Source: Polytrichum commune (Eukaryota > Streptophyta > Polytrichopsida > Polytrichales > Polytrichaceae). Taken from it: 64,000 bases of DNA. Numbering within the stretch: position 1 is the stretch's first letter; each line of letters begins with the position of its first letter. The stretch covers positions 49,283,169-49,347,168 of the forward strand of contig OX485806.1 of assembly GCA_950295325.1 (NCBI GenBank), written 5' to 3'. Under the pieces are notes generated by a model. The model saw only the letters and a list, made by a program, of their open reading frames with translations. It ran no database searches and was not told where the DNA came from. Shown piece by piece: positions 19,939 through 62,817 of the stretch. The position numbers were made by a program, and so were the translations under genes.

Positions 19939-20973
19939 ATGGCTGCGGCGAATGATAGGAGGAGTAGGGGTTTGTCACTGAATCTGCCATTACGGCAACC
20001 CCTTCCTAGGCCTCCTCCTGTGCCCCAGCCGCTGCCTCTCCCTCCCCCATCATTTGAAAGCCGACATAACCTTTGCAGGGCTCCACACCCTGGAAGTCAA
20101 GGGGGTCCTGGACGAGATGTTTGTTTGAATGACCTAGAGAAGATCAGCTTGTTAGGTGCAGGAAGTGGCGGTAAGGTCTACAAGGTGGTTCATCGCAGAA
20201 CAGGACGCATATATGCTTTGAAGATCATACAGGAAAAGCATGAGCTTGCTGTAAGGAGGCAGATAATGCGAGAAATGGAGATTTTAAGAACTTCGAAATC
20301 TCAGCATCTCGTGGAGTGTTACGGTGTTTTTGATCGTGGCGGGGAGATTTCTTTTGTTCTTGAGTATATGGACGGAGGTACACTTGCTGATGTCTTGAAA
20401 TTTCACAAGAAGATTGGAGAACGCTATCTTGCTGAAGTTACCAAGCAAGTGTTGTTGGGATTGCTATATCTCCACAAGCACAAAATTGTACACAGGGACA
20501 TAAAACCTTCCAATCTGCTATTAAATCGACGGCAGGAGGTGAAGATCGCAGATTTTGGAGTGAGCACAGTGCTGGCGCATACTTTAGCTCAGTGCAATTC
20601 TTTTGTTGGGACATGTGCTTACATGAGCCCAGAGCGTTTCGATCCCGATGGCAATGGGGGCGAGTATGGCTACTCGGCTGACATCTGGAGTCTTGGTCTT
20701 ACACTCCTGGAATGTGCTATCGGAAGGTTCCCTTGCTTACAACCTGGAGAGAAACCAGACTGGCCCACATTGATGTGTGCAATATGCTTAGGGGATCCGC
20801 CTTCCCCTCCCAACGACGCCTCCCCGGAGTTTCGAAATTTCATTGTCTTGTGTTTGCAAAAAGATGCCGTTCGGCGGCCCTCAGCTGAAAAGCTGTTAAC
20901 TCATCCTTTCGTGAGAAAATATGAAGGGCACCCTGGCGTTATATCTGCGCTGCTGCAGGGCTTAGTGTTGTGA
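19939..20973 (+). CDS. MAP kinase kinase, group D (MKK7/8/9-like), intronless
   Basis: A dual-specificity protein kinase of 344 residues that would phosphorylate MAP kinases in a cytosolic/nuclear cascade. The first ATG of the frame is at 19939. The N terminus has a basic-hydrophobic MAPK docking motif (RRSRGLSLNLPL) and then a proline-rich linker. The kinase domain follows in order: glycine loop LGAGSGGKVYKV, ATP-anchoring Lys95 (YALKII), catalytic HRDIKPSN (His185, Asp187), DFG Asp205, activation-loop T215-x5-S221 (the plant S/T-x5-S/T signature), then CAYMSPERF. All catalytic residues are present, and the length is near the 300-350 residues usual for group D members. The absence of introns is also typical of plant MKK groups C and D. 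It could be placed in group C instead, but the LNLPL docking segment and the RPDW/KPDW-TLMCAIC region favour group D. Confidence 0.93.
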   Translation: MAAANDRRSRGLSLNLPLRQPLPRPPPVPQPLPLPPPSFESRHNLCRAPHPGSQGGPGRDVCLNDLEKISLLGAGSGGKVYKVVHRRTGRIYALKIIQEKHELAVRRQIMREMEILRTSKSQHLVECYGVFDRGGEISFVLEYMDGGTLADVLKFHKKIGERYLAEVTKQVLLGLLYLHKHKIVHRDIKPSNLLLNRRQEVKIADFGVSTVLAHTLAQCNSFVGTCAYMSPERFDPDGNGGEYGYSADIWSLGLTLLECAIGRFPCLQPGEKPDWPTLMCAICLGDPPSPPNDASPEFRNFIVLCLQKDAVRRPSAEKLLTHPFVRKYEGHPGVISALLQGLVL

Positions 20974-31469: not shown

Positions 31470-31661
31470 TATTGGAAGATAGTGTTAGGTTGCATCGGTG
31501 ACATTGTCCCATATGGGTTGTCTACGCTGGTCCTAACCCATACATATAAATAAAGGCATAAGGGGAGGAGCTAATCACTCTCTCCATTGTATGCAATCCT
31601 TGTGTGTTGTGTTCTACCTTTCTACGCTGATGTCTTTGCTTTCTCCTCTCATTTCCCAATA
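31470..31661 (+). repeat. Copia 5' LTR
   Basis: 192 bp with ends TATTGG...CCAATA, which form a 6-bp inverted repeat. It lacks the usual TG...CA ends. Identical to the 3' LTR. It holds a TATAAATAAA box. Confidence 0.97.
31543..31554 (+). promoter_or_regulatory. TATA box in the copia LTR
   Basis: CATATAAATAAA sits about 75 bp into the LTR and is conserved in the relic LTR at 4948-5138. The same box is in the 3' LTR. It is a likely core promoter for the genomic transcript. Confidence 0.65.
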
Positions 31662-31675
31662 GGTTATGGGCCCAC
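31662..31675 (+). other. Copia primer-binding site complementary to the anticodon arm of initiator tRNA-Met
   Basis: GGTTATGGGCCCAC starts directly after the LTR. It is the exact complement of the plant initiator tRNA-Met anticodon loop region (GTGGGCCCATAACC, containing the CAT anticodon). It does not match the tRNA 3' end. This is the half-tRNA priming arrangement known for Drosophila copia and yeast Ty5. Confidence 0.88.
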
Positions 31676-31903
31676 TTTGCTTTAGAGCTTAGAGATCAAC
31701 TTAGGAGGAGGTGGGAGAGAGCCGGATCTGATCGGAGGCGATTTGGAGGTGTTTCAAGCTTTTGGTGGAGTTTTGGAGTTTTGGAGCACTTTTGGAGCGC
31801 CTTGGAGCATTCTTGGACACTTGGACCAGCGTGGAGGACACCTTAGGTTGAGGTTCATTGTATCTTGAGTGTTTACGTGAGATCGATTCGCATTTTGAGG
31901 GTT

Positions 31904-32838
31904 TGAGGTGATTAGAGTTCCAAAAGGCTTAGTTGTGGCTTTTTGATGGTTATATAGTTATTTGGCTTAGTTTTGGAGTGGAAAGGTGCTGACTTGAGAG
32001 ATCCATCCATTTAAAACTAACTTGGAGGTGTTTTGAGTTCCAAAAGGCTTAGTTGTGGCCTTTTGATGGTTATGTAGTTATTAAGCTTAGTTTTGGAGTG
32101 GAAAGGTGCTGACTTGAGAGATCCATCCATTCAAAACTAACTTTGAGGTGTTTTGAGTTCCAAAAGGCTTAGTTGTGGCTTTTTGATGGTTATGTAGTTA
32201 TTACGCTTAGTTTTGGAGTGGAGAGGTGCTGACTTGAGAGATCCATCCATTCAAAACTAACTTGGAGGTGTTTTGAGTTCCAAAAGGCTTAGTTTTGGCT
32301 TTTTGATGGTTATGTAGTTATTTGGCTTAGTTTTGGAGTGGAAAGGTGCTGACTTGAGAGATCCATCCATTCTATGCTTACTTTGAGGTGTTTTGAGTTC
32401 CAAAAGGCTTAGTTGTGGTTTTTTGATGGTTATATAGTTATTAAGGTTAGTTTTGGAGTGGAAAGGTGCTGACTTGAGGGATCCATCCATTCAAAACTAA
32501 CTTTGAGGTGTTTTGAGTTCCAAAAGGCTTAGTTGTGGCCTTTTGATGGTTATGTAGTTATTTGGCTTAGTTTTGGAGTGGAAAGGTGGTGACTTGAGAG
32601 ATCCATCCATTCAAAACTAACTTTGAGGTGTTTTGGGTTCCAAAAGGCTTAGTTGTGGTTTTTTGATGGTTATGTAGTTATTTGGCTTAGTTTTGGAGTG
32701 GAAAGGTGGTGACTTGAGAGATCCATCCATTCAAAACTAACTTTGAGGTGTTTTGGGTTCCAAAAGGCTTAGTTTTGGCTTTTTGATGGTTATACAGTTA
32801 TTTGGCTTAGTTTTGGAGTGGAAAGGTGCTGACTTGAG
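31904..32838 (+). repeat. 120-bp tandem array in the copia leader, about 7.8 units
   Basis: Eight blocks of exactly 120 bp share GAGTTCCAAAAGGCTTAG, TTTTGATGGTTAT, TTTTGGAGTGGA and GACTTGAGAGATCCATCCAT with a few substitutions each. The array lies between the primer site and the gag start codon, so it is in the untranslated leader of the genomic RNA. Minus-strand frames across it are by-products. Confidence 0.97.
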
Positions 32839-32953
32839 TGTGTGAGAACCTTGAATTAATTCCAAAGTTTAAAATCAAATTCTAAATTTTTTCGAGGGTT
32901 TTTTAGCCCTCGTGGTACATTAAGTGAGTGGGAGCTTGCATTTGAGTTGCAAA

Positions 32954-35900
32954 ATGGCTTCTAGTGAGGGCGATGGCCACATCACTCTCGACAAGTTTGG
33001 CGGCGACAACTTCAACCTCTACAAGTTCAAGTTGGAGATGGTGATGTCCACCAAAGACCTTTGGGAGATCGTGGAGGGTTCGGAGTTGCCGCCACCGTCC
33101 ACGGCGAGCGACGAGGTCAAGAAGGCGTACGAGCGTCGATGCAAGAAAGCCTTCGCCATCATTGCCACGAGCTTGGTGGACAAGGAGTTGGCGCACATCA
33201 AAGGGTGTAAAGGACCGGCGGAAGCGTGGAAGACGTTGTGCAACATCCACGAAACCAAAAGCTTGTCCAACATCTTGTTCATTAGGCGCAAGTTTTTCAC
33301 CATCAAGATGGACGAAGGCGCCGACATCCTCGACCACATCAACAAGGTAAAATCTCTCGCCGACCAACTCACATGCTTGGAGGTGCCAATGAAGGACGAG
33401 GATATGGTCATGACCTTGCTCGATAGCCTACCGCCTTCATTCGACCATTTGATCACGGCGTTGGAGACGCGCCCCATGAAGGAGCTCACGTTGGATTTCA
33501 TCACCGCACGTCTCATGCACGAGGTGTCCAAGAGGAAGGAGAAGGAGCCTCAAGGAGACGATGCGGCCATGTTGTCCCGCCAACCTCGCACGTTCGACAA
33601 CAACGAGAGGCGAGGCGACGGCCCGAGGTGCTACAATTGTGGTAAGTTGGGCCACCTCGCTCGCAATTGTCGATTGAAACGCAAGGTGAATGCCAACGTC
33701 GCGAGGTCGAGCGATGATTTTGCATTTGTTGTGAGAGATGGGGCGTCTAAAACCTCCACCACCAGATGGATAGTTGATTCGGGGGCCTCGAACCACATGA
33801 CACCGCATAAGCAATTTTTCGACACGTACGAATCCATTTCGGGCCGTAAAGTGTTTATGGGTGACAATGGCATCGTAGAGGTCCTAGGCAAAGGCTCCAT
33901 CCTAGTGGAAACACGTGTGAAGGGTCGTGCACGGAGCATTAGAATGCACGACGTGCTTCACGTGCCCGACTTGCATTCCAACTTGCTTTCGGTGAGCAAA
34001 CTCATATCGCGGGGTTTGAAAGTGCATTTCAACTCGTTGGGATGCGTGGTGAGGGCGAGCAACGGCGAGATGTTGGCCGTGGCGTCGTTGGAGTCCAATT
34101 TGTACCAATTGGACACGAAGGTGATGCATGAGGCCGAAACGAGTTCTTTGGCGCATTCGGAGGCCAACTCGCATCCTTTGGAGCTTTGGCACAAGAGGTT
34201 GGGGCATCTCAACGCCAATAGCGTGAAATCGCTCCAAACCATGGTGAGCGGCATGGACGTGCAAGCGGTGCCCAACGACGTGCATTCGTTCGCGTGCGAA
34301 GGATGCGTCCAAGGCAAGCAAGCGAGGCGTCCGTTTCCCACGGAGGGAGGCACCTGCGCCACCAAGATCTTGGAGCTCGTGCATTCCGACGTGTGCGGGC
34401 CGATGAAAACGCCGTCCATCGGAGGGGCAAGGTATTTTCTCACCTTCATTGACAATTTTTCGCGCAAGATTTGGGTGTATGTGCTCAAATCCAAGAGCGA
34501 GGTGTTGGCAAGGTTCAAAGAATGGAAAACCTTGGTGGAGAGGCAATCGGAACACGTAGTGAAGGTCCTTAGGACGGATAACGGCGGGGAATACATTTCT
34601 AAGGCATTCGACGATTTTTTAAGCAAACATGGCATCGCACGCCAAAATTCTTCACCTTACACGCCGCAACAAAACGGGGTGGCCGAACGGGCCAATCGCA
34701 CCATCGTGGAGATGGCGCGGTCCATGATTCATGCCCAACGCCTCGGCCACGAATTTTGGGCGGAGGCGGTGTGCAATGTGGTGTACGTGCGCAACCGGTG
34801 TCCCACGAAGGCCGTGGAAGGTAAGACGCCCGAGGAAGCGTGGAGCGGGAGGATGCCGCACGTGTTCCACATGCGCGTGTTCAGTTGCGTGGCTTATGCG
34901 AAGGTGCCGGATCAACGACGGACGAAGTTGGACGCGAAGGGTGTCAAGTGTTTGTTCCTCGGATATTGCGAAGGCACGAAGGCGTACCGGCTCATTTGCT
35001 TGGAGACGAAGAAAATCATCAAGAGTCCGGACGTGGTGTTTTTCGAGGACAAAACGCATTTGGAGGATTGTCCAAGTGGGAGCATTGACAAAACACCGGC
35101 GGTCAAGGTGGACATATCCGCCAAATCGGACGTGGACGAGTCGGAGGCCAACGGCGACGATCCTTTGGAGGACCTCGACATCGAGGAGGAGGAGGAGGAT
35201 GCGGAGGCCAACATTCCGGCCACGAAATCCACTCGTAGCGCGGAGGCATCGAAACTTGACAACGGTAAGAAACCCGCAACCAAAGCACCTCCACCACCGC
35301 AACATAGCAATGAAACCATGGGCCATTCTAGGTATCCGGATAGGGCACGCAAACCGCTCGGGGAATGGTGGAAGAACCACATTCCGCCGCCCCAAGACAA
35401 AGAGCATGCAAACATGGCAACCATCGGGGAACCTAGAAATGTGAGAGAGGCCATTCAATCGAGTGATACGAGCGAGTGGGAGTTGGCTATGCAAGAAGAG
35501 TTCGAATCTCTCATTGCCAATGGCACGTGGGAGTTAACTCCGTTGCTGAAGGGCCGCAAGGCCGTGAAGTGCAAATGGGTGTTTAAAACGAAAAAAGATG
35601 CGAGAGGCGTGGTGGTTCGTTTCAAAGCAAGGTTAGTAGCAAAGGGGTGCTCGCAAGTGGAAGGCATAGACTTTAGCGAAACCTTTGCACCGGTGGCCAA
35701 ATTCAACACCATTCGAGTCATACTCGCATTGGCGGCGGCCATGGGCTTGGAGATACATCAAATGGACGTGAAGACCGCATTCTTGAACGGCGAATTGGAC
35801 GTGGTGATCTACATGGAGCAACCGGAGGGGTTCGTGCAAAAAGGCCGAGAGCATCTCGTATGCAAGTTGAGGAAAACGCTCTACGGATTGAAGCAATCCG

Positions 35901-37018
35901 GACGAGCATGGTACGAATGCATTAACGTGTTCTTCGTGAACAAAGGCTTTACGAGGAGCCATGCGGACCACTCGTTGTACGTGTTACAAACTTGCAACTA
36001 CATTGTGATTGTCATCATATATGTGGACGACCTCGTGATTTTGTCGGACGACGTGGACATGATCAACGAGTTGAAGGCTAGCCTCGAGCGCGAATTCGAG
36101 ATGAGCGACCTCGGCGAGTTGCATTTCTTCCTCGGCGTTCATTTCGAGAGGGATAGGAGGTCGCGCACCATCACCATGCATCAACGAAGCTACATCGAAA
36201 CCATTTTGGAGCGATTCGGCATGAGTGATTGCAAGCCCATCGCAACCCCGCTCGACACCAAGACATCGTTGCCGAAGCTTTCGGATGAGGAGCACGAAGA
36301 GCATTTGCATGAAATGAAGGACGTTCCATACCAAGAGGCGGTGGGGTCGTTGATGTACGCCATGGTGGCCACAAGACCGGACCTCGCATTTGCGGTAAGC
36401 GTGGTAAGCCGCTATATGTCGAAACCGGGTCCGATGCATTGGATGGCGATCAAACGGATCATGCGCTACTTGAAGGGCACCTTAGATATGAAGTTGCGCA
36501 TCGGAGGCAATCATATTAACGTCAAAGGGTATTCGGATGCGGATTGGGCCGGCGATGTGGAAAACCGTAGGTCCACGTCTGGGTACGTATTCTTTGTTGG
36601 AGAGGGAGCCGTTTCGTGGAATAGCAAACGGCAACAAACGGTGGCACAATCAACAATGGAGGCGGAGTACATGGCCATGAACCGATGCACGAGGGAGGCC
36701 ATTTGGCTAAGGCAATTAATGGAGGATGTAGGTTGTGTACAAGAGGAGGCCACGACCATCATGTGCGACAACCAAGGTTCTATGGCATTAGCTAAGAACC
36801 CAACCAACCATGATAGGTCAAAGCATATAGATGTGCAACACCATTTCATTAGAGAAAAGATTGAAAACAAAATTGTAGAGTTAGAATATTGTCCTACGCA
36901 ATATATGGTAGCGGACATTCTAACAAAGGCTTTAGCGAGAGATAGGCATGAGGGGTTAAGTGAAATAATGGGGTTGGAGTACAATGGCACCTCGCAAAGT
37001 GGGAGTATTGGAAGATAG
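32954..37018 (+). CDS. Copia gag-pol polyprotein
   Basis: A single frame of 1,354 residues from ATG 32954 (context AAAATGGCT; no upstream ATG in frame). Gag occupies about residues 1-225, then a CCHC zinc knuckle (226-239). The aspartic protease has active site DSG at Asp275. A GAG-pre-integrase HKRLGHLN region lies near 411. The integrase core has Asp479, Asp542 and Glu578 (DD35E). The RT has YVDD at 1023-1026. RNase H has YSDADWAG near 1194 and MEAEYMAM near 1236. This is the Ty1/copia order, integrase before RT. No stop or frameshift occurs, so gag and pol are made as one protein. The frame passes through the polypurine tract and ends 13 bp inside the 3' LTR. It provides all enzymes for reverse transcription and integration. 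Confidence 0.97.
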   Translation: MASSEGDGHITLDKFGGDNFNLYKFKLEMVMSTKDLWEIVEGSELPPPSTASDEVKKAYERRCKKAFAIIATSLVDKELAHIKGCKGPAEAWKTLCNIHETKSLSNILFIRRKFFTIKMDEGADILDHINKVKSLADQLTCLEVPMKDEDMVMTLLDSLPPSFDHLITALETRPMKELTLDFITARLMHEVSKRKEKEPQGDDAAMLSRQPRTFDNNERRGDGPRCYNCGKLGHLARNCRLKRKVNANVARSSDDFAFVVRDGASKTSTTRWIVDSGASNHMTPHKQFFDTYESISGRKVFMGDNGIVEVLGKGSILVETRVKGRARSIRMHDVLHVPDLHSNLLSVSKLISRGLKVHFNSLGCVVRASNGEMLAVASLESNLYQLDTKVMHEAETSSLAHSEANSHPLELWHKRLGHLNANSVKSLQTMVSGMDVQAVPNDVHSFACEGCVQGKQARRPFPTEGGTCATKILELVHSDVCGPMKTPSIGGARYFLTFIDNFSRKIWVYVLKSKSEVLARFKEWKTLVERQSEHVVKVLRTDNGGEYISKAFDDFLSKHGIARQNSSPYTPQQNGVAERANRTIVEMARSMIHAQRLGHEFWAEAVCNVVYVRNRCPTKAVEGKTPEEAWSGRMPHVFHMRVFSCVAYAKVPDQRRTKLDAKGVKCLFLGYCEGTKAYRLICLETKKIIKSPDVVFFEDKTHLEDCPSGSIDKTPAVKVDISAKSDVDESEANGDDPLEDLDIEEEEEDAEANIPATKSTRSAEASKLDNGKKPATKAPPPPQHSNETMGHSRYPDRARKPLGEWWKNHIPPPQDKEHANMATIGEPRNVREAIQSSDTSEWELAMQEEFESLIANGTWELTPLLKGRKAVKCKWVFKTKKDARGVVVRFKARLVAKGCSQVEGIDFSETFAPVAKFNTIRVILALAAAMGLEIHQMDVKTAFLNGELDVVIYMEQPEGFVQKGREHLVCKLRKTLYGLKQSGRAWYECINVFFVNKGFTRSHADHSLYVLQTCNYIVIVIIYVDDLVILSDDVDMINELKASLEREFEMSDLGELHFFLGVHFERDRRSRTITMHQRSYIETILERFGMSDCKPIATPLDTKTSLPKLSDEEHEEHLHEMKDVPYQEAVGSLMYAMVATRPDLAFAVSVVSRYMSKPGPMHWMAIKRIMRYLKGTLDMKLRIGGNHINVKGYSDADWAGDVENRRSTSGYVFFVGEGAVSWNSKRQQTVAQSTMEAEYMAMNRCTREAIWLRQLMEDVGCVQEEATTIMCDNQGSMALAKNPTNHDRSKHIDVQHHFIREKIENKIVELEYCPTQYMVADILTKALARDRHEGLSEIMGLEYNGTSQSGSIGR
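36996..37005 (+). other. Copia polypurine tract
   Basis: AAAGTGGGAG abuts the 3' LTR and is translated as part of the polyprotein. The same tract and junction are conserved in the relic at 7068-7083. Confidence 0.85.
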
Positions 37019-37197
37019 TGTTAGGTTGCATCGGTGACATTGTCCCATATGGGTTGTCTACGCTGGTCCTAACCCATACATATAAATAAAGGCATAAGGG
37101 GAGGAGCTAATCACTCTCTCCATTGTATGCAATCCTTGTGTGTTGTGTTCTACCTTTCTACGCTGATGTCTTTGCTTTCTCCTCTCATTTCCCAATA
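37006..37197 (+). repeat. Copia 3' LTR
   Basis: Identical to 31470-31661. It is followed directly by the second GTCCT target copy. Confidence 0.97.
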
Positions 37198-37202
37198 GTC
37201 CT

Positions 37203-42689: not shown

Positions 42690-42794
42690 TGTGTAAGTCT
42701 TATATGTGAGCTATGGGCAGATTTGACTTGTACCAACTGTGTCATAATTTCTTTAGAACTAGATTTTTGAATAAGAGTTGTTAGAGAGGATGGC
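42690..42794 (+). repeat. Left part of the repeat into which Gypsy-2 inserted
   Basis: Shares blocks (GAGCTATGGGC, TCATAATTTCTTTAGA, TTTGAATAAGAG) in order with 58215-58335. The matching right part continues at 51706-51840. The two halves plus the paralogue define the insertion site. TGGC at 42791-42794 is repeated at 51706-51709. Confidence 0.65.
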
Positions 42795-43096
42795 TGTCAC
42801 AGTATGCGGCGTCGACGGCCGCACCTTATCCATTGGGTTTCATCCATCTAGATGTGGAGAGGAAGGCTCCTAAGTGAGGAGCCTCCTCCTTGGCTTGGCA
42901 TTCTTGCCAAGTCAAGTTTTGTGAGTGAGTGTGTAGGGAGAACTTGTGTGAGGTGAAGATTGCATATTTTTGCAATAAATCTTGAGTTCTTCTTCCCCTA
43001 GTTACACTCTTGGATTCTCCCGTGGTGGAGTGAGAGATAGCTTGACTCATTGTGTGCATTTGAAGAGAGATTTAGAGCTCTTATGAGTGTTTCACT
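42795..43096 (+). repeat. Gypsy-2 left terminal repeat (block B)
   Basis: About 300 bp matching 51268-51595, for example GCGGCGTCGACGGCCGCACC, GCAATAAATCTTGAGTTCTT and AGAGATAGCTTGACTCATTG. It starts TGTCACAG. It lacks the roughly 100-bp block A that precedes and follows block B at the right end. Confidence 0.85.
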
Positions 43097-43911
43097 CTCT
43101 TCTAATTGGTTGAGAAATTGTGAAGCACGGGATAGCCGACGGATTGCCACTAGGAGTTGTGTGGCATGTGGAATCACCATTCGACCTATGTTGAGGTCGA
43201 ATTGTGTCTATGGACACATGTTCTACATGTTTCCTTAAGCATTGAGTTATGGATTGTAATGGAAGGACAAAGCATGTGCATTTCCTTTTCCTAAGCAACA
43301 GGGGCTCTTATTTTTTACCACCAACTGTAGGCGGGTGCCAGTCGGTCGCGGTGGCTTTCAATTTCTGCTTAAGTGTTGTTTTGGGGAAGAGGATCCAGTG
43401 CTGTTATTGCATTGTTCCTTGTATTTTGTTGTGATACCTTCCCTTGTGGCGGGCTGTTATGTTGGAATATTCTAACACTGCCCTAATTTGTATTGTTTTA
43501 GTTTGTGATAGGGTGTTGTGGGGGTGAGGTCGGAGTAATGACCGTCGAGACCCATGTGTGTGCACAAAGTGGGCGGTGCTTGTTTTTCCTTATGGTGAGG
43601 CTGGATTGATGACCAGTGGACCATAAGTTTGGTGGTGTTTGCAAGTGCAGGTTGCCTTTCACCTATCAACCCTTTACCTTTACACCACATTAGTCTAGGT
43701 TGTTGGTTCCAGTGACCGAACCCATTGCGGGTTTATGGTTACAACTCGGAGCCAACATTATCGTTCTCCGTCTCCGGTATCATCGAAAGGTCGGTCCTCG
43801 GACCTCTTGGACATTAAACCAGTGGTAGCATCCGACGAGGTTTTTTAGCCTATTTCGGCGTGGGGGACTGCCACTCGGTCTCACGTCTTTTGGGTGGGAT
43901 CCTTTGACGAG
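43097..43911 (+). other. Gypsy-2 leader
   Basis: Noncoding stretch between the left repeat and gag. A primer-binding site would be expected near 43097, but none matching a tRNA 3' end was recognised. Two diverged copies of a GGTGAGG(T/C)...GATGACC-like block lie near 43520 and 43590. Confidence 0.5.
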
Positions 43912-45190
43912 ATGGAGGAGGAAACGCAAAGTGGCATCCGTGACCGATTTTCTAGTCGAGCAGGGACCATTTCCCTACAAGATTGGAAAATTCGGTTCAA
44001 GACATGAATGAGGGAGAAGCGTCAACATAATACCAATTTCAATGACTGGTATGCGTTCGAGCTACTGTCCCAACATTTGGAGCACGAGGCTCTTCAGACT
44101 TATGAGCAGTGAACGGATGCTCATTGGATGGAGCTGCGCAAGGTGGAGCAGTACTGGGAGACTCGGGTTGAATTGGTATCCGCATTGAAGGAAGGCGTAA
44201 CTTCCAGTTTGATGGCCATCCTTGAGGTTAAGTCGGAGGTGCCGGAGGGAGTATATGAGATGGATGTGGAGGGAGCTTCTTCTGGTGAACCCAAGGATAA
44301 GGGTTTTGCTCCCGCTGCGGCGAGTACGTTGAGCCCCATTCTTCTACTCTCCCGTTATGCCCAGGCTACCCAAGAGGCTTTAGCCTCTTTGGGGGCTTCG
44401 CCAGTTTTTGAGCCATTGCGGGCATTTGAGCTGCACTACAGGAGAAGTACGGAGGTTTCCGTCAGGACCAAATGTAGCGGATACATGATTTTAGACGGGT
44501 GAAGGACGATACACATCGTACCATGTATACAACGTTGGCGAGGTTTGCCAGAGAATCTGGAGGTATTTTTGTCTAAGATTGACAAATACCTTTTTGACTT
44601 GGCACTGCCCAGGATCATCATGGAGTTTGGTGGTCGGGCCACACTTGCAGAGGCATTCCCCATTGTGGAGCAGTGCGATCCTGCATTGTGCCTGCACAAT
44701 GCCACTGATTTGGTGTCCTTGCTAGTGGATTCTAGCAAATTTCGGAAGGCTCCAGTCGCGACTGCAAGATTGGCAGAGGCAAAGGTGTACAAAACCTTGC
44801 ATTGTTGGTCTTGTGAGCAAGCAGGCCACGCTAAGAAGGATTGTCCTTCGAAGCAAAGGCAAGCCCACACCATAGGTAATCCGAAGCGGAAACTGTTTGT
44901 TCTCGCGAAGAATTTGACTAAGGGGGCGGGTAAACATTTACCCAAGCAGTTGACGTGTTCTCATTGTGGGCGCAACAATCACGCGGTGGAGAACTGCTTC
45001 GCTCTCCATCCAAAAAAACGTCCTTCTTCCGATCGGGAGAAGACGTTGGAGGCAAAGATTGGAGCATTAGAGGAAAGGTTCAAAAGTTTGGCGTCATCCG
45101 GCCAAATCTTGGACTCACCGTCCTCCGCCGATAAGGCTAGTTCTTCCACTCCGGATTATTATATGTTCGGAGCCTCGGGCTCAATCCGTG
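43912..45190 (+). pseudogene. Gypsy-2 gag with two CCHC zinc knuckles
   Basis: The frame opens at ATG 43912. The capsid-like part includes FNDWYAFELLSQHL, VEQYWETRVELVSAL and, after a frameshift near 44480-44545, FLSKIDKYLFDLALP. Two zinc knuckles follow, CWSCEQAGHAKKDC and CSHCGRNNHAVENC, both CX2CX4HX4C, for RNA packaging. TGA stops at 44005 and 44110 interrupt it. A second frame change near 45180 leads into the protease frame. Two knuckles in gag are less common than one in plant gypsy elements. Confidence 0.85.
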
Positions 45191-46470
45191 TCACGAGCCA
45201 CGCCCTCTACCACAGGGGAGTCTGTGAATAGCTTAGGAGCTCGGGGCAATGGTCCCGCATATCAGATTGGCTAGGCCCGTCTGCCATTATCTTTTGGATT
45301 GGCGGATGTTGTCCAATATGTAAGTGGTTGTCTTTCGAGCTTGGAGGCTTTGGATCCGGCGGCTGGTGTGGTGCACACCCCTTTGTTTACAGCAATGGAG
45401 TAGTCGTCATTCGACATCCAACCCGCTAAGGTTTTTCACCTAGTAGGTAGGATTTTGGAAGGAAAGACAACCATGTCTTCTTTCACTGTGGCTCAAGCCA
45501 CCGCTGACCTTCATACCACGGAGGTACTGGAAGAAGCGGCTAGACGACGAGCGAGGCTTGCAGTAGAGGCCATTGCGTCTTTCGACGCACACGTCTCGGA
45601 TGGCCGAGAGGCCACCACATCTTATGATTCACCAGCCTCCGCGAGCGCAGCTTATCTATCATATGTCACTAGTTGACCTGCTCGCGAGCGTCGAGGCATC
45701 CAACCTGGCGTTGTACGTATGGTGAATGATTCTGGCATTTTGGTGGTCAGTCGGACTGGGGGCAACCCTATTCGAGTTGCTCCCCAATGTGTGATGATGG
45801 ATTCGGGAGCACAACCTGTTATGATCGGCAAGAGGCTTGCCCAGGAATTGGGGTTGGCGGCCGAAGATTTGGCTCCCTGTCCATTCATCATTGTCACGTC
45901 CATTGGTCATGTGGAGCGGGCCACAGGTTATACGCGGGAGCCATTACAATTTAGCTTCCGAGTGAAGCCTGGAGATCCACCCGCACCTCATGTTCTTAGG
46001 TGTGCAGTAACTGATGCGACCAACTATGTTATTTTAGTTGGTCAGCAAGCACTTTACCCTCTCGGTTTTGGTTTAGACAACTAGACTGAGGAGGCTTGGA
46101 TCCGACCAGGTTGGTCGGCTGGAGACGGCTGTAGGGAACTTATTCCTGTGGCATTTGCAGCGGCTGCCACCATTGCGCCATTATCCATGGTCTGTGGATG
46201 CAGTGCTATTGTGGATACATTGCCTTATGGATCCGCATTATTGGAGGAGTCATTGGCATTCATGGGGAGTGTTGAAGACCCACGAGAGATGGCACCTAGG
46301 AATGCCTTGATACGCCACCCCAAGGACCTTTTACCACCGTGGCGTGATTCCGCCGGCTTATTTCGAAGGTGTGAGGACATTGTCTTCTCTCTCGGTTCTA
46401 CTACACCATTTATACCAGATATTCCATCCACGTTGGCACGTCCTATTTTATGGCACCCTCCAGACACTGG
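45191..46470 (+). pseudogene. Gypsy-2 aspartic protease and linker
   Basis: One frame from about 45190 to 46470 with stops at 45272 (TAG), 45401 (TAG), 45674 (TGA) and 46082 (TAG). The Asp-containing MMDSGAQPVMIGKRLAQELG block (Asp codon 45800-45802) is the protease active site. A LVGQQALYPLGF block closes the domain. The linker that follows (AMFGSVEDPRE-like text, RHPKDLLPPWRD) leads in the same frame straight into the methyltransferase. The enzyme is thus part of the polyprotein and not a separate insertion. Confidence 0.85.
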
Positions 46471-47517
46471 GATTACTTTGGTGGAGCTGTTTGGGGGCAT
46501 CGGCACAGGATTAACAACCGTATTGGAGGCTGGCCTCACGGTCAAACAGTATGTCTATGTGGACAACTCTCAAGTGTCCACCCGTGTGGCTCGTCACCAT
46601 CTTCACCAGTTGATGTGTTATACCCACAACAGTTACACCCGAGTGCCATTCGTGGGTGTTTTTCACGTCTCCCTCGTGATGTTACATTCATCAGTGAGGC
46701 CGACTTACGACACTTGGGTCCGGTGGATATGGTGGTTGCGGGTTGGCCATGCCAAGGCCATTCCCATGTTGGAGCAGGCCAAGGTCTAGAGGATCCCAGG
46801 TCTAGTCTATTTTGGGACTTCATCCGCCTCATGCAGTGGTGGCTTTCCCACCAACCTTCCCCGCCAGGATATATCTTCGAGAATGTATCTTTGTTGGGAG
46901 ACTCTCGGGACAAGGTGTTGGAAGGCGATCATTATGTTCGTCAACACCTTGGAGATCCCATTTTTGTGGATGCCGCGAGCATTGGATCTTATGCCCACCG
47001 GCCTCGGTGGATTTGGACCAACCTCGCATCGTCATCCACTTTAGCTGCAGCATTTTCTATAGTGCCTCCACCTTTGGGTCAGAAGGTGGATGACATCTTG
47101 GATCCAAACCGGAATTCTTTGCCGGTTGTTCGAGATGACTTACCCCTGTTGGCATTGGTCAACAAAGTGGGGGCACCACGGAGGGCCTTTCCCACCTTTA
47201 TGACGTTTCCACAGTCATTCGCCTTCCGCAATCAGGGGCCGGGTATGGTGTGGGATGCTACTACCAAAACCCACACCGAACCCTTGGCTGATGAACGAGA
47301 GCGTGCCATGGGATTCTGCATTGGTACCACCACAGCTCCTGGCCTTTCTGAGGGCCAACGACGCTTCGTGTTGGGCCAAGCCATGGATCTTCATATCATG
47401 GTGTGGACTGTTGGTTTATGTTTTGCATTGCAACGACATCATGGTGACCAGTTGTTGTCTCTGGGGGCAGAGGATTCTGGTCAAAGGGCACAGCGGTCCA
47501 CATCCATGGAGGAATGA
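46471..47517 (+). pseudogene. C5-cytosine DNA methyltransferase domain inside Gypsy-2 (DRM/DNMT3-like)
   Basis: The motifs of a cytosine-5 methyltransferase appear in order. Motif I (SAM binding) is LVELFGGIGTGL at about 46477. Motif II is YVYVDNS. Motif IV is VVAGWPCQGHS, with the nucleophilic Cys at codon 46750-46752. A RSSLFWDFIRLM segment follows. Motif VI is FENV (46876-46887) and motif VIII HRPRWIW. The C-terminal ERERAMGF ... GQRRFVLGQAMDL corresponds to motifs IX-X. The SSLFWDF...FENV and ERERAMGF...VLG pattern resembles plant DRM and animal DNMT3 rather than MET1/DNMT1, CMT or DNMT2. One frameshift lies between motifs II and IV (about 46600-46625); the remainder to the TGA at 47515 is open. 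It would methylate DNA, perhaps the element's own cDNA or the target region. It sits between protease and RT. Confidence 0.9.
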
Positions 47518-49470
47518 ATTGAGGTCATAGTTGGAGAAGCCGAACAAATCTTTCGATTCGAGCAGCAGGTGATGGAGGAGCTCCGAGCTCAACAAGTTTA
47601 TATTGCTTTGGCTTCTTCACCTCCGGTGGTCGCTTCATCATCACATATTGGTGGTGATAAATAGGGGATGGACTTTATTGCTAGCACGGAGGTTGGGGGC
47701 ATGGTTAATGCCCCCTCCTCTCATTAGCAGTTAGTGTCCGTGCCAGCACCAGGTGGCTCTCTTCTAGTGGAGAGGGAGACCACAGAGTTTGATGATTGGC
47801 CATTGGAATTGGGCCCTCATCTCATTGGTGCTGAGGCACGGAATGTAGAAGCATTTATTCGCTCGTACCGCAGGTGTTTTGCTTTTAGCCTTCAAGATCT
47901 TGAAGGTTATAAAAGAAAACCCATCCACATTCAGTTGGAGGACAACCATCCCATTTTTCGGAGACCTTATAGGCTCAGTGTTTCCAAGCAAATTGGCGTT
48001 CAGGCTCGTTGCAAAGAGCTCTTGGCAGCAAGGCTAATCAAACTTTCCAATGGGGAGTATGCTTGTGCTACGGTTATGCCATCGAAGAAGGACATCTTTG
48101 GCAATTGGACGGAGAAGCGGATGTGCGGGGATTACCGTCCAGTTAACCGGAAGATTAAGTCGGATCGATATCCCATGCCAATCCCGAAGGAATTGTTCGA
48201 TGCCGTTGGATTTTCTCGAATCTTTAGCACATTGGACTTGAGTTGCGGCTATCACCAGTTCCCATTACTTGTGGGAGACCGGGTGAAGACTGCATTTTGG
48301 GGAGTTGATCAAGATGGGAAGGATCAATTGTACCATTGGAAGTTTCTTCCATTTGGCCTCAAGAATGCACCTGCTGAGTTTCAGAGAGTGATGAACTAGG
48401 TCCTCTCTGGCTTGCCATTTTCTCGGTGTTACATTGATGACGTGATCATCTTCAGCAGGACACCACAAGAGCATGTTAGGCACCTGCAAGCCGTTTTTGA
48501 ACGCTTGCAGCGGTGGGGATTGCGCTTACACCATGGTAAGTGCAAGTTTTTCCATGACCGACTGGCATATCTAGGTGATATGATTATTCTGGGAGGTCTT
48601 GGGGTGCAACAAGCTAAGGTGGATGCCTTGCAAAAGATCCCGACACCAGTCGATGTGCCGAGACTTTGTGCTTTCTTGGACTTGGCGAATTACTACCGAT
48701 GATTCGTCAAAGAACTTTAGCTTGATCGCAAAGCCTCTTACCATTCTCACGAGCAAGGACCAACCGTGGATTTGGGGTCGTGAGCAGCAACATGCGTTTG
48801 AGACATTGAAGCAGAGACTGGGTACGGCTCCAGTGCTTCGACGTCTAGATATCTCCAAATCCTTTCAGTTGCATACGGATTGGAGTTCATTGGATTTGGG
48901 AGCAGTCCTCACTCAGAAGGATGATTTTGGCCGGGAGTATGTTGTTGCTAACGCTTCGCGAAGCAATAACACGGCAGAGGCTAATTATTTGGCATACGAG
49001 GGAGAAGCATTGGCGGCAATATGGACTATTGCCCATTTTCGGCCATATCTTTATGGTCAGCACTTTACTTTAGTGACTGACCATCAGCCGTTACGGTGGC
49101 CCATGGAGTCGGATAAGCTTACTGGCAAGCTTGCCAGGTGCGCTTTGTTGCTCCAGGAGTATGACTTTGAGGTGGTACACCGTGCTGGGATTACCAACCT
49201 GGATGCAGATGGACTCTCATGCAATCCAAGTCCTTCGGATAAGGACTTGACCGGGGCCAGGTGGCATGGAGATTGTGATCGAGAGGCGGTTCCAAATTGG
49301 CACGCGGCTGCTTACCTCACTTTATTTTCTGGTGCATCTGTTGAGGTTCCGATTCAGGGCTCAGATGATGAGACTGATCAGCCTCAAGCTATTGCGGATA
49401 TATGGGAGGATCTTCCCGTATTGCATAAGTTTCAACATGGTACCTTTCCTTCGTCTATTTCGGCAATTTA
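47518..49470 (+). pseudogene. Gypsy-2 reverse transcriptase and RNase H
   Basis: The frame of the methyltransferase continues past stops at 47515, 47662 and 47725 into RT. Recognisable are QLEDNHPIFRRPYRLS, an RMCGDYRPVNRK block, FSTLDLSCGYHQ, FLPFGLKNAPAEFQRVM and the catalytic YIDD (48430-48441). Stops lie at 48397 (TAG) and 48700 (TGA). After a frameshift near 48705 the RNase H domain follows (FQLHTDWSSLDLGAVLTQKD, NYLAYEGEALAAIW, FTLVTDHQPLRW, NLDADGLS). The order RT then RNase H then integrase is that of Ty3/gypsy. Confidence 0.92.
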
Positions 49471-50875
49471 AAGGGATAGGATTGGACATCAAATAACAAG
49501 GTTCCGTTGGGAGAACGGTTTGTTATTTCGATTGTGGCCGGATGGGACAAGGCGTCTTGTCCCTAGGCCGGATCAGAGGGCCTCCTTGGTGCGACAAGTG
49601 CACGAGGAACTTGGCCATTTTGGCATACGCAAGACACGTTCGATGTTGCGTGGCCAATATTGGTGGACTGGCATATATCAACAAGTGGTTGCTTATGTCG
49701 GGAGGTGTGAAATTTGTGACCGGGTCAGATCTAGCTTTAACACCTTGTCACCTCAATTACAGCCCTTACCTATCATGGGATTGGATTACCGTTGGTCGCT
49801 GGACTTTGCAAGACTGTTGGTCGTCACGCCACGTGGAGCAAAGTACGTGTTGGTGATGGTGGAGCATTTTAGCAAGTGGATTGAGCTTGTTGTTTTATCC
49901 CAAAACTCTGCAGAGTTGGCCGCGACTGCCTTTTTGAATCGTGTGTTGGCATGTTTTGGAGCACCGGCTGAAGTATTAACGGACCAAGGGATGGAGTTCC
50001 TCGGTGCTTTTGAGGAGTTGTGCACTAAGGCGCTCATAGATCACCTCACCACCTCTCGGGATCATTCGAAGGCGGATGGCTTAGCTGAACGGGTTGTTCA
50101 GACAACCAAGCGTGGCTTGAGGAAGTATCGATTACTTCAAGGGAATCATCGGGATTGGGACCTTATGTTGTCTTGGATTGCTATGGGCTATCGATTTAGT
50201 AGGCAGGCCTCTTTGGCGTCCTACAGCCCGTATCAGTTGTTGTATGGACGTGAGCCTATAGTCCCGAGTTCCATTCGGGAAAAGCTAGCTCATGTTGTGA
50301 ACTTGGATGACCCAGACATTTGGGCAGAGTGTTTGCAGGAGCGGGCTCAATTCTTCCAGAGGGCCATGCCTATGGCCATGGAGAATTTGTCCATTGCTTA
50401 GCACCGTGACACATTGCGTTATGCACGCATTGGCAGTGGTGCTTATTGACCTCAGTTGCGGAGATTCCGGCAGGGGGATTATGTCTATCTCCAACGTGAG
50501 GCACCTACGACATTGGATGTCAGGGCGGGGCGCATTATCCTTCGAGCAAAGGACGTGTTGCCGAGTGGTTTGTTGTTGTTGGAAGGCAAGGATGGCATGG
50601 AATATCGCGAGCATTCAAAAAATTGTGTCCCATGTCATCTAACTATTGAGGGTACAGTTCATCCTGAACTGGCCGTCGTGCCAGAGGGTCTTCCATGTTT
50701 TGTGTGTGGAGAAAAGAAAGGAGCGGCTACTATGCTCTTGTGTGATCAGTGTCAACGCGGTTGGCACATGGCATGCTTGAGGCTACCCTTGACTTCTCTA
50801 CCATCTGGACAGTGGAGTTGTCATCGTTGTCGAGGATCTTCCGTACTTGGTGCTCCCACCAATCGTACTCAATGA
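49471..50875 (+). pseudogene. Gypsy-2 integrase with C-terminal PHD finger
   Basis: Zinc-binding HHCC region: HEELGHFGIRKTRSML then CEICDRVR. Catalytic core: Asp at 49802, Asp at 49982 (LTDQGMEF) and Glu at 50087 (GLAERVVQTTKRGLRKY), giving D,D-34-E. A C-terminal barrel-like module follows (RFRQGDYVYLQ, GRIILRAKDVLPSGLLLLEG). Stops occur at 50399 (TAG) and 50447 (TGA). From 50696 to 50830 the same frame encodes a canonical C4HC3 PHD finger: CFVC, CDQC, GWHMAC and QWSCHRC with standard spacing. PHD fingers bind histone H3 tails. Here it occupies the place of the chromodomain in chromoviruses and could steer integration; that role is inferred. Confidence 0.92.
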
Positions 50876-51146: not shown

Positions 51147-51159
51147 CTGAGGGGGGGCA
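51147..51159 (+). other. Gypsy-2 polypurine tract
   Basis: CTGAGGGGGGGCA directly precedes TGTCGAGG, the start of block A. This is strong evidence that an LTR starts at 51160. Confidence 0.8.
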
Positions 51160-51705
51160 TGTCGAGGTGTGTTGTTTATGCGTGACTTTGCTATGTTGTA
51201 ATGTTGTTTGTTAGTGGTGGTTGGTACTCGATCTGCATTGACACACGATCGTTATTTACACGACAGCTGTCACGGTATGCGGCGTCGACGGCCGCACCTT
51301 ATCCGTTGGGTTTCATTCATCTAGATTTGGATGGATGAATTTAGATGTGGAGAGGAAGGCTCCTAAGTAAAGAGCCTCTTTTTTGGCTTGGCATTCTTTC
51401 CAAGTCAAGTCTTGTGAGTGAGTGTGTGGACAGAGCTTGTGTGAGGTGAAGATTGCATGTTTTTGCAATAAATCTTGAGTTCTTCTTCCCCTACTTACAC
51501 TCTTGGATTCTCCCGATGTGGAGTGAGAGATAGCTTGACTCATTGTGTGTATTTGAAGAGAGATTTAAAGCTCTTATGAGTGTTTCACTCTCTTCCTTCT
51601 CACTTGTCGAGGTGTGTTGTTTATGTGTGACTTTGCTATGTTTTAGTGTTGTTTGTTAGTGGTGGTTGGTACTCGAACTGCAGTGACACACGATCGCTAT
51701 TTACA
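51160..51705 (+). repeat. Gypsy-2 right terminal repeats, arranged A-B-A'
   Basis: Block A (51160-51260, TGTCGAGG...TATTTACA) recurs as A' (51605-51705) with about 6-8 substitutions. Block B (51268-51604) lies between and matches the left repeat. Both A copies end at the same TTTACA. The polypurine tract implies an LTR of A+B; A' directly after B would then be a second LTR start, as in an LTR-LTR junction. The left end of the element has B only. Confidence 0.8.
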
Positions 51706-51840
51706 TGGCCTGGCGCGTTGGAAAAACAAAGTAACATGAATGGGATGACAACTGCTATTCCAATCAAAGTAACAAGCCACAAGATTGGCTGGATGGATGA
51801 ATTACTTTAGTGCCTTCAAGTTATGACCTTCTATATCATA
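51706..51840 (+). repeat. Right part of the repeat into which Gypsy-2 inserted
   Basis: Matches 58345-58452 in order (GGATGACAACTG, AAAGTAACAAGCCACAAGATTGGC, ATGACCTTCTA-type blocks). With 42690-42794 it reconstitutes the copy of this repeat seen uninterrupted at 58215-58452. Confidence 0.75.
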
Positions 51841-60197: not shown

Positions 60198-62524
60198 CTA
60201 AGGTCCCACATGCTTCATGATGCCACTTTCGAGGAGGTGTTTCACTTCATTGAAACTAAGGCTCGGAGCATGGATGAAAGTATTTTGGTATTGATCCAAG
60301 TTGCAGGTCACACGGAAGATGAAGTACAAGTGCTTGCAGTTCACCCAAGTGCGCCGCTTCCCAAGTGCTCTTGCTGACATCTCCACGAAATCCGGGCATG
60401 TGCAGGACGGGAAGGTGCTGATAGAGATACGGTAGTCTTCAACCTTAGCCTTCTTTCGGGACTGGAAGAGAATGATGCACCCGATCCCTGGGTGAGGTAT
60501 CATTGTGACGGAGGTGATTTGTCCGTCGACGTTGAGGGCTGACTCCCACTTGTTGCGTTGTTGGACGCATGGACCGTTGTTACTGCGTCGGATCTTCTTT
60601 CCAAACCTCAGCGTAGGGTATTGATCGGCTTGGGCCGGGGTAGGGAGTTCGGCCATGGATGAGGCAACATTGGAGGAGTTGCCGAAAAGTCTTCTGGGTG
60701 ACACATCTTGACGCTGCTGAAGTTGGAATCCCCCTTCTTCAAGGGCCAGAACCTCCTGGAGAGTGAGGTTTGTCCCAGTGAGGACAGGCCAGACGTCCGG
60801 GACATTCGGACGGTGCTGCACCCACTTCCTCCTAGTGCCTTTGACACATCTCTCAATGTCATCGTTACAGAAGAAGAATTGTGTGAAGAATTCCTTGTTC
60901 TTCTTGTAGTCGCGCATGTAGCCGGTGTACGTAGGAGCTAGAGTACTTTTACCATGCCCAACGATCTTCTGGGTGCACTTGGTCTTTGTGCGAGCTTGCG
61001 TGGCGAAGCAGGCCTTGGCGGAAGTCTTGGGCAGCCTAGAAATGTGCCACTTGGAGACATCGCAGTGGGTTTCCTTAATGTTATTGACGTGGGTGACCCG
61101 TTGTGGAATCGATTTCTCCGGGGATTGTGTTAGGGGCAGGTCTGATGGTGTGGCGGAATCAGTGCGTGCCTTGGTTGACCTAGTGCTCACTCGTGGATGA
61201 GAGAAGCTGACCTTGTCGGGTCTATGTGAATCTTGATCAGAACCAGGGGGCATATCAAGTTTGCGCTTGGTGGTGCCAAAGACCTCCTCTCCTTCGAGTT
61301 GGGGTTTGCGGGTGCACCAATGCTCTGCTCCAGGCATGTGCTCGAGTGCTGCAACAATTCTTTTGGCGTCACTGGATCGTTGTGCAGCACGAAGGCGGAG
61401 TTCTTCTTTTCCTGGGCCAGTACCATAGCGATCACCCTTCAAGTAGGCGTAGTAGTTCGTACATTGCATGAACGCCCTCACGAAATCATCCACGGTCGCA
61501 ACATACAGATCAGAGCCACGGTTTCCAAACTGCTGAAGCCATTTGTTATGGACTGTCTCGGAGAGGTTGCAAGATGGCATCTCTGCCAACTCAAAATCTG
61601 TGAAATTCTGAGAGAAGTAAATAAAATGTAGTGAGTACGCTTTGCACAAAAACAGGCCAAAAGCCTAAACTGACACCAAAAAAACCAAAAAAAACCAAAA
61701 AAAAAGTTGACACCAAAAAGCGAAATAGAAAGTGGGTGGGTACTCACTAGTTGCATGAAACCACCCCATTGACGGTAACGAAAGTGCCAGAATGCAAGCC
61801 ATGTATCAAGGTCCTTGATTCCTTCCTCGGATGCAGCTCCAGAGGAAAGCCACCATGCCCAGATGGCAAGATAACGGGACTCGGACTGCTCGGGAGTCTT
61901 GGCATCCTTGTACTGCTTGCATAACAACTTGTGTTGATGTTGGAGGTCGGGCTTGATGTGGGTGGTGGTGTGGCATTCCATAGACATCGTCCAATGCAAT
62001 AGACATGTCCTCTCGCGAGACTCCATAGGAACCTTGGGATCACCACTGCCATAGATAATCCTAACTGCATTCCAATTGGCTTGTGCACTGTCCGCCATGA
62101 ACCCTTTGAAGTTAACTTTAGCAATGCCATGTCTGTGCATAACTTCATTGAGCCCATGCCAAAGAAGGCTCTGCGCCGTGACATCCTCAAACTGCATATC
62201 ACATACTGCAATAGTCATAACTCGGCAGTAGGCCGAGTCATAGACATGGCAAGCCATGGTTGTCCACCCCTTGACACGCTTGACATAATCAAACATGACC
62301 CAAGCATCCTGCAGATCACCGTGTGGTTGCATTCTCATGACAAGGTCCACTCCAGAGCCAGGGCCCACCTCGGACATCTTGAACACATAGACTTTCTCCA
62401 ACAGCTTTCCTTGGCCTGGGAATTTAACACTATATTCGGTATTTGGAGACTTTTTGTTGATTATGAGATTATATAAGGATGCACCTTTCAAAATTGGACC
62501 AGTAATGACGACTAAAAATCCCAT
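60198..62524 (-). CDS. MULE transposase-like protein with SWIM zinc finger, two exons
   Basis: Exon a is 62524-61748 and exon b 61607-60198. The 140-bp intron has a consensus donor (CTA|GTGAGT) and acceptor (TTCTCTCAG|AA), and both exons stay in frame (phase 0). The product is 728 residues, with no internal stop. Exon a carries the MULE-like catalytic core: a HVYDSAYCRVMTIAVCD block, FMADSAQANWNAVR (second Asp region), RERTCLLHWTMS, and the WLAFWHFRYRQWGGFMQL end. Exon b holds a variable Ser/Thr-rich middle and a SWIM finger CTCPDF...CKH (CXC-Xn-CXH) near 60330-60410. The start at 62524 is the first ATG of the open stretch but upstream exons may exist. It may be a domesticated transposase or a recently active MULE; no terminal inverted repeats were found. 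Confidence 0.78.
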
Positions 62525-62817
62525 ATGTATAATGGTATGCTATTATTATTATACATAAAGGCATGGAAGTGAACAAAAATGTGAGGCATACATGAAAATA
62601 GTTGCGTATGAAATTACAACTCGTTATGAATGGAAGGGAAGGTGCGAAGAATGAATGGAAGTTGAATGAATTAATTGGGATTGAAATACAATTATAATGG
62701 AAATACCATCAATGTCTTGAGTAACTTAGAATAGCATAGAAAGTAAGCACTTAAATATGTTCTACACCTAAGCCCATTTAGGGAGTCCGTCCCACTAGTA
62801 CGCTTCTAGACGTCACA
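62525..62817. other. Spacer between the SWIM gene and the possible upstream exons
   Basis: AT-rich, with ATT repeats near 62537-62552. It could be an intron or the promoter of the SWIM gene; no clear donor was found at its upper edge. Confidence 0.35.

Follow-up and report, generated by a model that had tools for sequence, protein, structure and literature searches.

Plants use cytosine methylation to silence transposons. Why, then, would a retrotransposon carry a DNA methyltransferase of its own? The question is raised by a 64,000-nucleotide stretch of the moss Polytrichum commune (assembly GCA_950295325.1, contig OX485806.1, positions 49,283,169 to 49,347,168; "the window" below means this whole stretch), in which a cytosine-5 (C5) methyltransferase domain (46471-47517, forward strand) lies inside the polyprotein of a retrotransposon. 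The window copy is a decayed member of an old Ty3/gypsy family with many young copies in P. commune. From the sequence comparisons reported here, we put at about one half the probability that this family captured a DNMT3-type de novo methylase that travels in the particle and marks the element's own complementary DNA (cDNA). An element with its own de novo methylase reverses the usual arms race, and why a retrotransposon keeps such an enzyme becomes testable in a land plant whose own DRM and DNMT3 are ordinary; liverwort proteins of this kind exist as well.

A DNMT3-type methyltransferase in a gypsy polyprotein

A preliminary description of the window, made from its letters, had placed a C5 methyltransferase between the protease and the reverse transcriptase (RT) of a gypsy element. 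PF00145 matches at 46375-47517 on the forward strand (E 6.3e-12, 46 bits, cut-off 22), and this match, together with the neighbouring domains, confirms the placement. The single frameshift described within the domain is also present: the protease frame holds motif I (ELFGGIGT, 46484) and the RT frame holds motifs IV (GWPCQGHS, 46741), VI (FENVS, 46876), VIII (AHRPRW, 46993) and X (GQAMDL, 47374), with the change between motifs I and IV.

Of the earlier label "DRM/DNMT3-like", only the second part stands. The best solved relatives of the window domain in a single-sequence search are DNMT3B/3A (4e-10), and a 14-row family profile run against solved structures finds DNMT3A (3.9e-19), DNMT3B (1.4e-17), HhaI (1.4e-9), an entry labelled only "DNA methyltransferase" (4onj, 1e-9), DRM2 (3e-8) and DNMT2 (~1e-6). 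By sequence profile and by fold, the nearest kin is DNMT3. The motifs run I, IV, VI, VIII, X, which is the ordinary order, as in DNMT3; the DRM order is permuted, as in the host DRM (C2:4702000-4706500; L073), and capture of a DRM is thereby ruled out. Capture of a DNMT3-type domain by a gypsy element, also proposed in that description, is supported.

Around the methyltransferase, the window element has the domain order of Ty3/gypsy elements: protease, RT, RNase H and an integrase with H2C2 and DDE core, all on the forward strand. The gag region (43735-45676, its start set by comparison with L001, an intact relative introduced below) is broken and has a zinc-knuckle match below the cut-off within 44503-45231. 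The aspartic protease piece (45677-46084) matches PF13650 (0.0011) and PF13975 (0.0018), both below the curated cut-offs, and a counterpart of this stretch is present in the open first reading frame (ORF1) of relatives. Pieces of RT (47728-48399; PF00078, 4.9e-10) and RNase H (48584-49471; PF17917, 2.7e-31) are followed by the integrase (49472-50401; PF17921, 3.9e-17; PF00665, 7.3e-14), and the polyprotein terminates in a PHD finger (~50696-50830; PF00628, 5.8e-11) whose nearest solved structures are PHF12, DPF3 and CHD4. The Pfam scan of the window element gave no chromodomain match; the PHD finger stands in its stead. The preliminary description mentions neither this finger nor the repeats and target duplication described below.

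A family of moss elements with relatives in other species

The assembly has 407.8 Mb in 64 contigs; seven contigs account for about 406 Mb, and seven chromosomes would suit Polytrichaceae. Searching it with PF00145 gave 353 first-look candidates. The 123 that were scored all exceeded the cut-off; one is the host DRM, and 18 have frames of at least 1350 amino acids (aa). A second search with a DNMT3B piece gave 148 matches, and the six inspected are all elements. Twenty copies were fetched, mostly picked for long frames and hence biased to young copies. Methyltransferase, RT and integrase follow one another in the window's order in every one of them. Since the copies were recruited via the methyltransferase domain itself, its universal presence proves little; the shared position does carry weight. 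The preliminary description had allowed that this copy alone picked up the domain by later insertion, with other copies lacking it. The domain is not missing from the 20 fetched copies, and its shared place there and in other species rules out such an event.

The copies fall into two subfamilies. Over RT-integrase, nucleotide identity to the window is 91-92% for the seven copies of subfamily I and 74-76% for the 13 of subfamily II; in the methyltransferase the values are 88-89% and ~66%. In 9 of the 20, ORF1 is open up to a UAG codon (at least 1356 aa) and ORF2 is open as well (1047-1048 aa).

Protein searches returned 45 and 52 relatives, mostly unnamed metagenomic proteins; the named ones include Marchantia polymorpha, Klebsormidium nitens and two Closterium strains, and in these the methyltransferase likewise lies between protease and RT. 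A search of genome contigs found seven loci, with a full-query match only in L001 (CADCWO010000201.1). This contig of a biocrust cyanobacterial metagenome-assembled genome (MAG) holds an intact relative with the methyltransferase in the same place; its 127-base ends are identical, so that it was assembled as a circle. In our reading, L001 is a plant or algal contaminant. Element DNA is filed under bacterial MAGs in L001 (Synechococcales) and P0004 (Candidatus Obscuribacterales), which we read as eukaryotic contamination. Scanned with a single sequence, viral contigs yielded no relative. With a profile, 17 viral loci matched over at most ~220 query residues, and the eight frames inspected are free-standing C5 methylases.

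Two architectures occur. Type 1 is protease-methyltransferase-RT-RNase H-integrase, to which a PHD finger is added in the moss copies and L001. Type 2, found here only in metagenomic proteins, shares all domains including the PHD finger, with the methyltransferase between RNase H and integrase instead (RT-RNase H-methyltransferase-integrase-PHD); RT precedes the methyltransferase in nine proteins, eight of them with integrase and PHD finger, and there are further partial ones. Among the type-2 proteins P0071, P0077, P0078, P0080, P0082, P0085, P0086, P0089 and P0091, several have a motif IV that reads PEC, WEC or FEC rather than PC.

A single branch sets type 2 apart in each tree, with support of 99/97 for the methyltransferase and 100/100 for RT; rows from the moss, the biocrust and Marchantia likewise cluster in each (94/93 and 97/99). 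In the RT tree, a branch with 100/100 support has the K. nitens protein P0092 and every type-1 row on the same side, in keeping with a probable kinship to the charophyte element. Deep forks of the methyltransferase tree are weak (37/6). The two trees conflict at one point: the methyltransferase pairs subfamily II with L001 (99/96), whereas RT pairs subfamily I with II (99/94). There are two possibilities for this conflict. ORF1 may have been exchanged, or it may simply evolve faster.

A conserved stop codon between methyltransferase and RT

The preliminary description saw the domain as in frame with protease and RT apart from stops and one frameshift; this picture of a pol fusion interrupted by stops is not supported. 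The methyltransferase frame ends in UAG CAA followed by UUA, UCA or CCA in 20/20 copies. The window has UAG CAG UUA (47725-47733), and L001 has UAG CAA UCA. In relatives, gag, protease and methyltransferase share one open frame that ends at UAG-CAR-YYA, and RT-RNase H-integrase-PHD resumes in the same frame after it. The amino acid of the second codon past the UAG differs between lineages while the nucleotide pattern is kept. The UAG is thus conserved rather than a product of decay, and the domain therefore belongs to the Gag-protease product. UAG-CARYYA is a type I readthrough signal (PMC5382211), and we infer that the element's UAG-CAR-YYA is a leaky stop of the readthrough type. Such a stop bears on the amount of enzyme relative to RT.

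Fifteen long relatives (P0046-P0060), read at the protein level, likewise end after the methyltransferase. Because other members (Klebsormidium, Closterium, P0068, P0070, P0072-P0076, P0088) join methyltransferase and RT in one predicted protein, only some of the family have the conserved stop.

Element ends, repeats and priming

The repeats of the window element are arranged A-coding-B-A-B. The left 4-bp target-site duplication (TGGC, 42791-42794, identical to 51706-51709) precedes repeat A1 (42795-43102), which forms the left end and begins TGTCAC. Beyond the coding region, a polypurine tract (AGGGGGGGCA, 51150-51159) lies immediately 5' of repeat B1 (51160-51265, terminating CGACA). The GC that separates B1 from A2 (51268-51604) completes the palindrome GACAGCTGTC. 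Repeat B2 (51605-51705; all repeats on the forward strand) forms the right end, without the last five bases present in 17 other copies, and the right TGGC follows.

Counting the window, 21 copies were compared, and both ends were seen in 18 (L033, L036 and L050 lack one end in the fetched sequence). All 18 start with TGTCAC and have perfect 4-bp target duplications, so that the ends, TGTC..ACA, agree with the TG..CA of Ty3/gypsy elements; the right end is CGACA in 17, and that of the window lies five bases earlier. The layout is A-coding-B-A-B in 15 and A-coding-B in 3 (L037, L040, L048, each with perfect 4-bp duplications); the shorter form may come from circles with one long terminal repeat (LTR) or from recombination between B1 and B2. 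None of the 18 has two equal LTRs in ordinary order, and an ordinary LTR pair is ruled out by the ends and target duplications. The family is gypsy by its proteins, not by its repeat layout.

Within a copy, A1 and A2 diverge by 0.6% (subfamily I, five copies) or 0.14% (subfamily II, nine copies), and B1 and B2 by 0.4% or 0.3%; between copies the figure is 1-2%. As the repeats are closer inside a copy than between copies, A and B are both renewed in each cycle.

Directly 3' of A1 lies a leader complementary to A itself: ACTTGGCAAGAATGC in subfamily I (complementary to A position 124), ACTTGACAACAAT in subfamily II (about position 189) and ACTTGACAAAGAT in L001 (position 183). The complementarity spans 13-15 nucleotides (nt) in 18/18 testable copies (the fetched sequences of L036 and L050 stop short of this region), and none of 1000 leader shuffles was as good in each of the 15 copies tested. 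Across all three lineages, leader and complement covary. In the window copy the complementarity is lost (7 nt; 330/1000 shuffles as good). Self-priming of the Tf1 type requires just such pairing of a leader with another part of its own RNA, and the family thus appears to be self-primed. In this respect it resembles Tf1/Sushi elements, whose primer site beside the 5' repeat pairs with part of the same RNA, and Tcn1-type elements, which in plants are predicted to self-prime (PMC6317226). Those elements carry chromodomains where the moss element has a PHD finger, and the likeness concerns priming.

A purine run that finishes with GGGGGCA lies immediately before B. With B after the polypurine tract and A before the self-complementary leader, by retroviral logic the LTR of the cDNA would be B-A. 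The integrated ends lie instead at the B|A palindrome GACAGCTGTC, ~105 bp from the ends expected of reverse transcription. The A2|B2 joint is constant in most of the copies in which it was read (L035 and L051 are not among these); it is 3 nt longer in the window, and in L047 it is short at a shared CTT. This joint would be the site where two cDNA ends were joined. Out-of-register repeats of this kind raise the question how a DDE integrase finds its ends.

One possible answer, with the odds somewhat against it, is replication by split direct repeats as in PAT/DIRS elements, in which the internal B1-A2 region restores the ends of a linear product. A-coding-B-A-B is common to 15/18 copies and none has A-B-A-coding-B, a form that free cutting of a two-LTR circle would also yield; a published legend likens the repeats of the K. 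nitens element to those of DIRS (PMC5890265). Against this stand the polypurine tract before B and the self-complementary leader after A, which fit a retroviral-type cDNA, and the variable A2|B2 joint. Moreover, the tyrosine recombinase that characterises DIRS/PAT elements gave no match in the eight window pieces scanned, and the window has an H2C2 and rve integrase of the DDE type with 4-bp duplications.

More doubtful is that the DDE integrase opens a circular, joined-end cDNA (self-primed, with B-A as LTR) at GACAGCTGTC, and that DNMT3 made at the Gag level methylates this intermediate. Two-LTR circles would then yield A-coding-B-A-B and one-LTR circles A-coding-B, with 4-bp duplications. 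A-B-A-coding-B, the alternative cut of a two-LTR circle, is absent from the 18 copies, which counts against this route and leaves free cutting of the two-LTR circle unsupported as such; that A-coding-B could arise by B1/B2 recombination also counts against it. Circles are generally regarded as dead ends for retroviral integrase. If true, joined-end integration would be a new route for a DDE integrase.

What the methylase may do

In the particle-borne reading, few ribosomes would read through the UAG, so that the methylase would be made at the Gag level and packed in the particle while RT and integrase stay scarce. Reverse transcription would be self-primed in the Tf1/Sushi manner, and the packed methylase would methylate the new double-stranded cDNA, at least in CG, before or during integration. 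The PHD finger would steer the integrase via a histone mark. A new copy would carry its methylation on arrival, and the host would be spared and the element sheltered. Support for these steps falls in the order readthrough, self-priming, cDNA methylation, PHD steering; the task given to the methylase is our best guess and the least certain step of the mechanism.

In comparisons across subfamilies, the methyltransferase has a dN/dS of 0.15 and RT one of 0.03 (computed, as below, on open copies only), with dS saturated near 2 and some pairs not computable. The domain is constrained, less tightly than RT.

Several observations weigh against marking of the element's own cDNA. Inside the subfamilies, dN/dS is 0.34 and 0.53 for the methyltransferase versus 0.08 and 0.13 for RT. 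In the window copy, compared at columns where six subfamily-I copies agree (L050 excluded), C-to-T changes affect 61/512 CG, 54/393 CHG and 100/1938 CHH sites (CG versus CHH, p 3e-7; CHG versus CHH, p 1e-8); this decay looks like a CG and CHG methylation footprint as host enzymes would leave it, with no sign of self-marking. The K. nitens domain was inactive in yeast, a result its authors call inconclusive, and elements without DNMT also move in such hosts (PMC5890265). CpG observed/expected ratios (0.65-0.74 in ten copies, 0.82 in L001, 0.98 in a copia element of the window, 0.58 in the rest of the window) have one comparator and were not used.

It is unlikely that the methylase acts chiefly on the chromatin that surrounds an insertion, or on host DNA in general, with the PHD finger as a reader in the silencing of target regions. 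The PHD finger does end the integrase polyprotein, both in the window and in copies whose ORF2 is open. However, the methylase is in the Gag frame and the PHD finger in the readthrough frame, so the two are not made in equal amounts.

We consider it less likely still that the domain mainly lends the Gag product structure or nucleic-acid binding, with catalysis of little weight. Its place in the Gag frame and its faster evolution relative to RT would suit such a role, but motif IV PCQ is readable in 20/20 copies and motif I in 19/20, and the domain is under constraint between lineages.

A recent retrocopy of a host gene or a one-off insertion into the window copy is very improbable, given the same position in all 20 fetched copies and in other species and the placement of the host DNMT3 (C5:22540500-22544000; L086; intron-rich, ordinary motif order, recognised by its motifs), which in a tree on the motif IV-VIII columns pairs with human DNMT3B (93/93) rather than joining the moss elements. 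The phylogeny that had been proposed as a check for a retrocopy thus did not return one. In the same tree, the pair of host DNMT3 and DNMT3B adjoins type 2 (86/82), and on these columns the data do not reject a single clade that unites all element domains (p-AU 0.244). When a piece of human DNMT3B was placed in a quick tree together with eight rows from bacteria or phages, it fell among the elements, at the end of a very long branch; we give this position no weight.

Comparison with known elements

This kind of element is already known from KnitGypsy-Dnmt3 of K. nitens (de Mendoza et al. 2018; PMC5890265). It shares with the moss elements the gypsy domain set, an ordinary-order DNMT3-type domain between protease and RT (P0092), constraint on that domain and, per its published legend, the A-coding-B-A-B repeats. 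The moss elements differ in their host and in the conserved stop that splits methyltransferase from RT, which are joined in one predicted protein in P0092; moreover, they have a PHD finger, and the words "PHD" and "frameshift" are absent from the main text on KnitGypsy-Dnmt3 (PMC5890265). SymbioDIRS-Dnmt3 and SymbioLINE-Dnmt of Symbiodinium are also retrotransposons with a C5 methyltransferase, of DNMT3 type and with the same repeat order as in moss in the case of SymbioDIRS-Dnmt3; they use a tyrosine recombinase or LINE machinery, whereas the moss elements have a DDE integrase (PMC5890265).

DNMT-bearing retrotransposons were previously reported from dinoflagellates and one charophyte alga (PMC5890265), and a 2019 opinion paper describes methylase-bearing transposons as absent from land plants such as tracheophytes (PMC6338049). 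The open-licence literature, to which our search was confined (subscription papers and preprints lay outside it), contains no description of such elements from mosses or liverworts, and the main text of a survey of plant LTR elements contains none of the words "methyltransferase", "PHD" and "Marchantia" (PMC6317226). New within these searches are the many copies in a moss, the Gag-protease-methyltransferase frame with a conserved, predicted leaky stop, the apparent self-priming, the PHD finger and the out-of-register ends.

Other features of the window

A MAPKK gene lies at 19939-20970. In a comparison that scored only candidates sharing most words, its closest named protein by E-value is Physcomitrium patens MKK9 (76%, full length), followed by Marchantia paleacea (64%); identities of up to 89%, over 84%, come from unnamed metagenomic proteins. 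By this gene the host reads as a moss. The reverse strand has two long frames (488 and 353 aa) at 60198-62539 that match no Pfam family and look like transposase remnants, with cysteines that we take to be SWIM-like. The copia element mentioned above (31470-37198) has one open frame of 1364 aa and 193-nt end repeats that are 100% identical, and a 120-bp tandem array (31782-32921) lies just before the frame.
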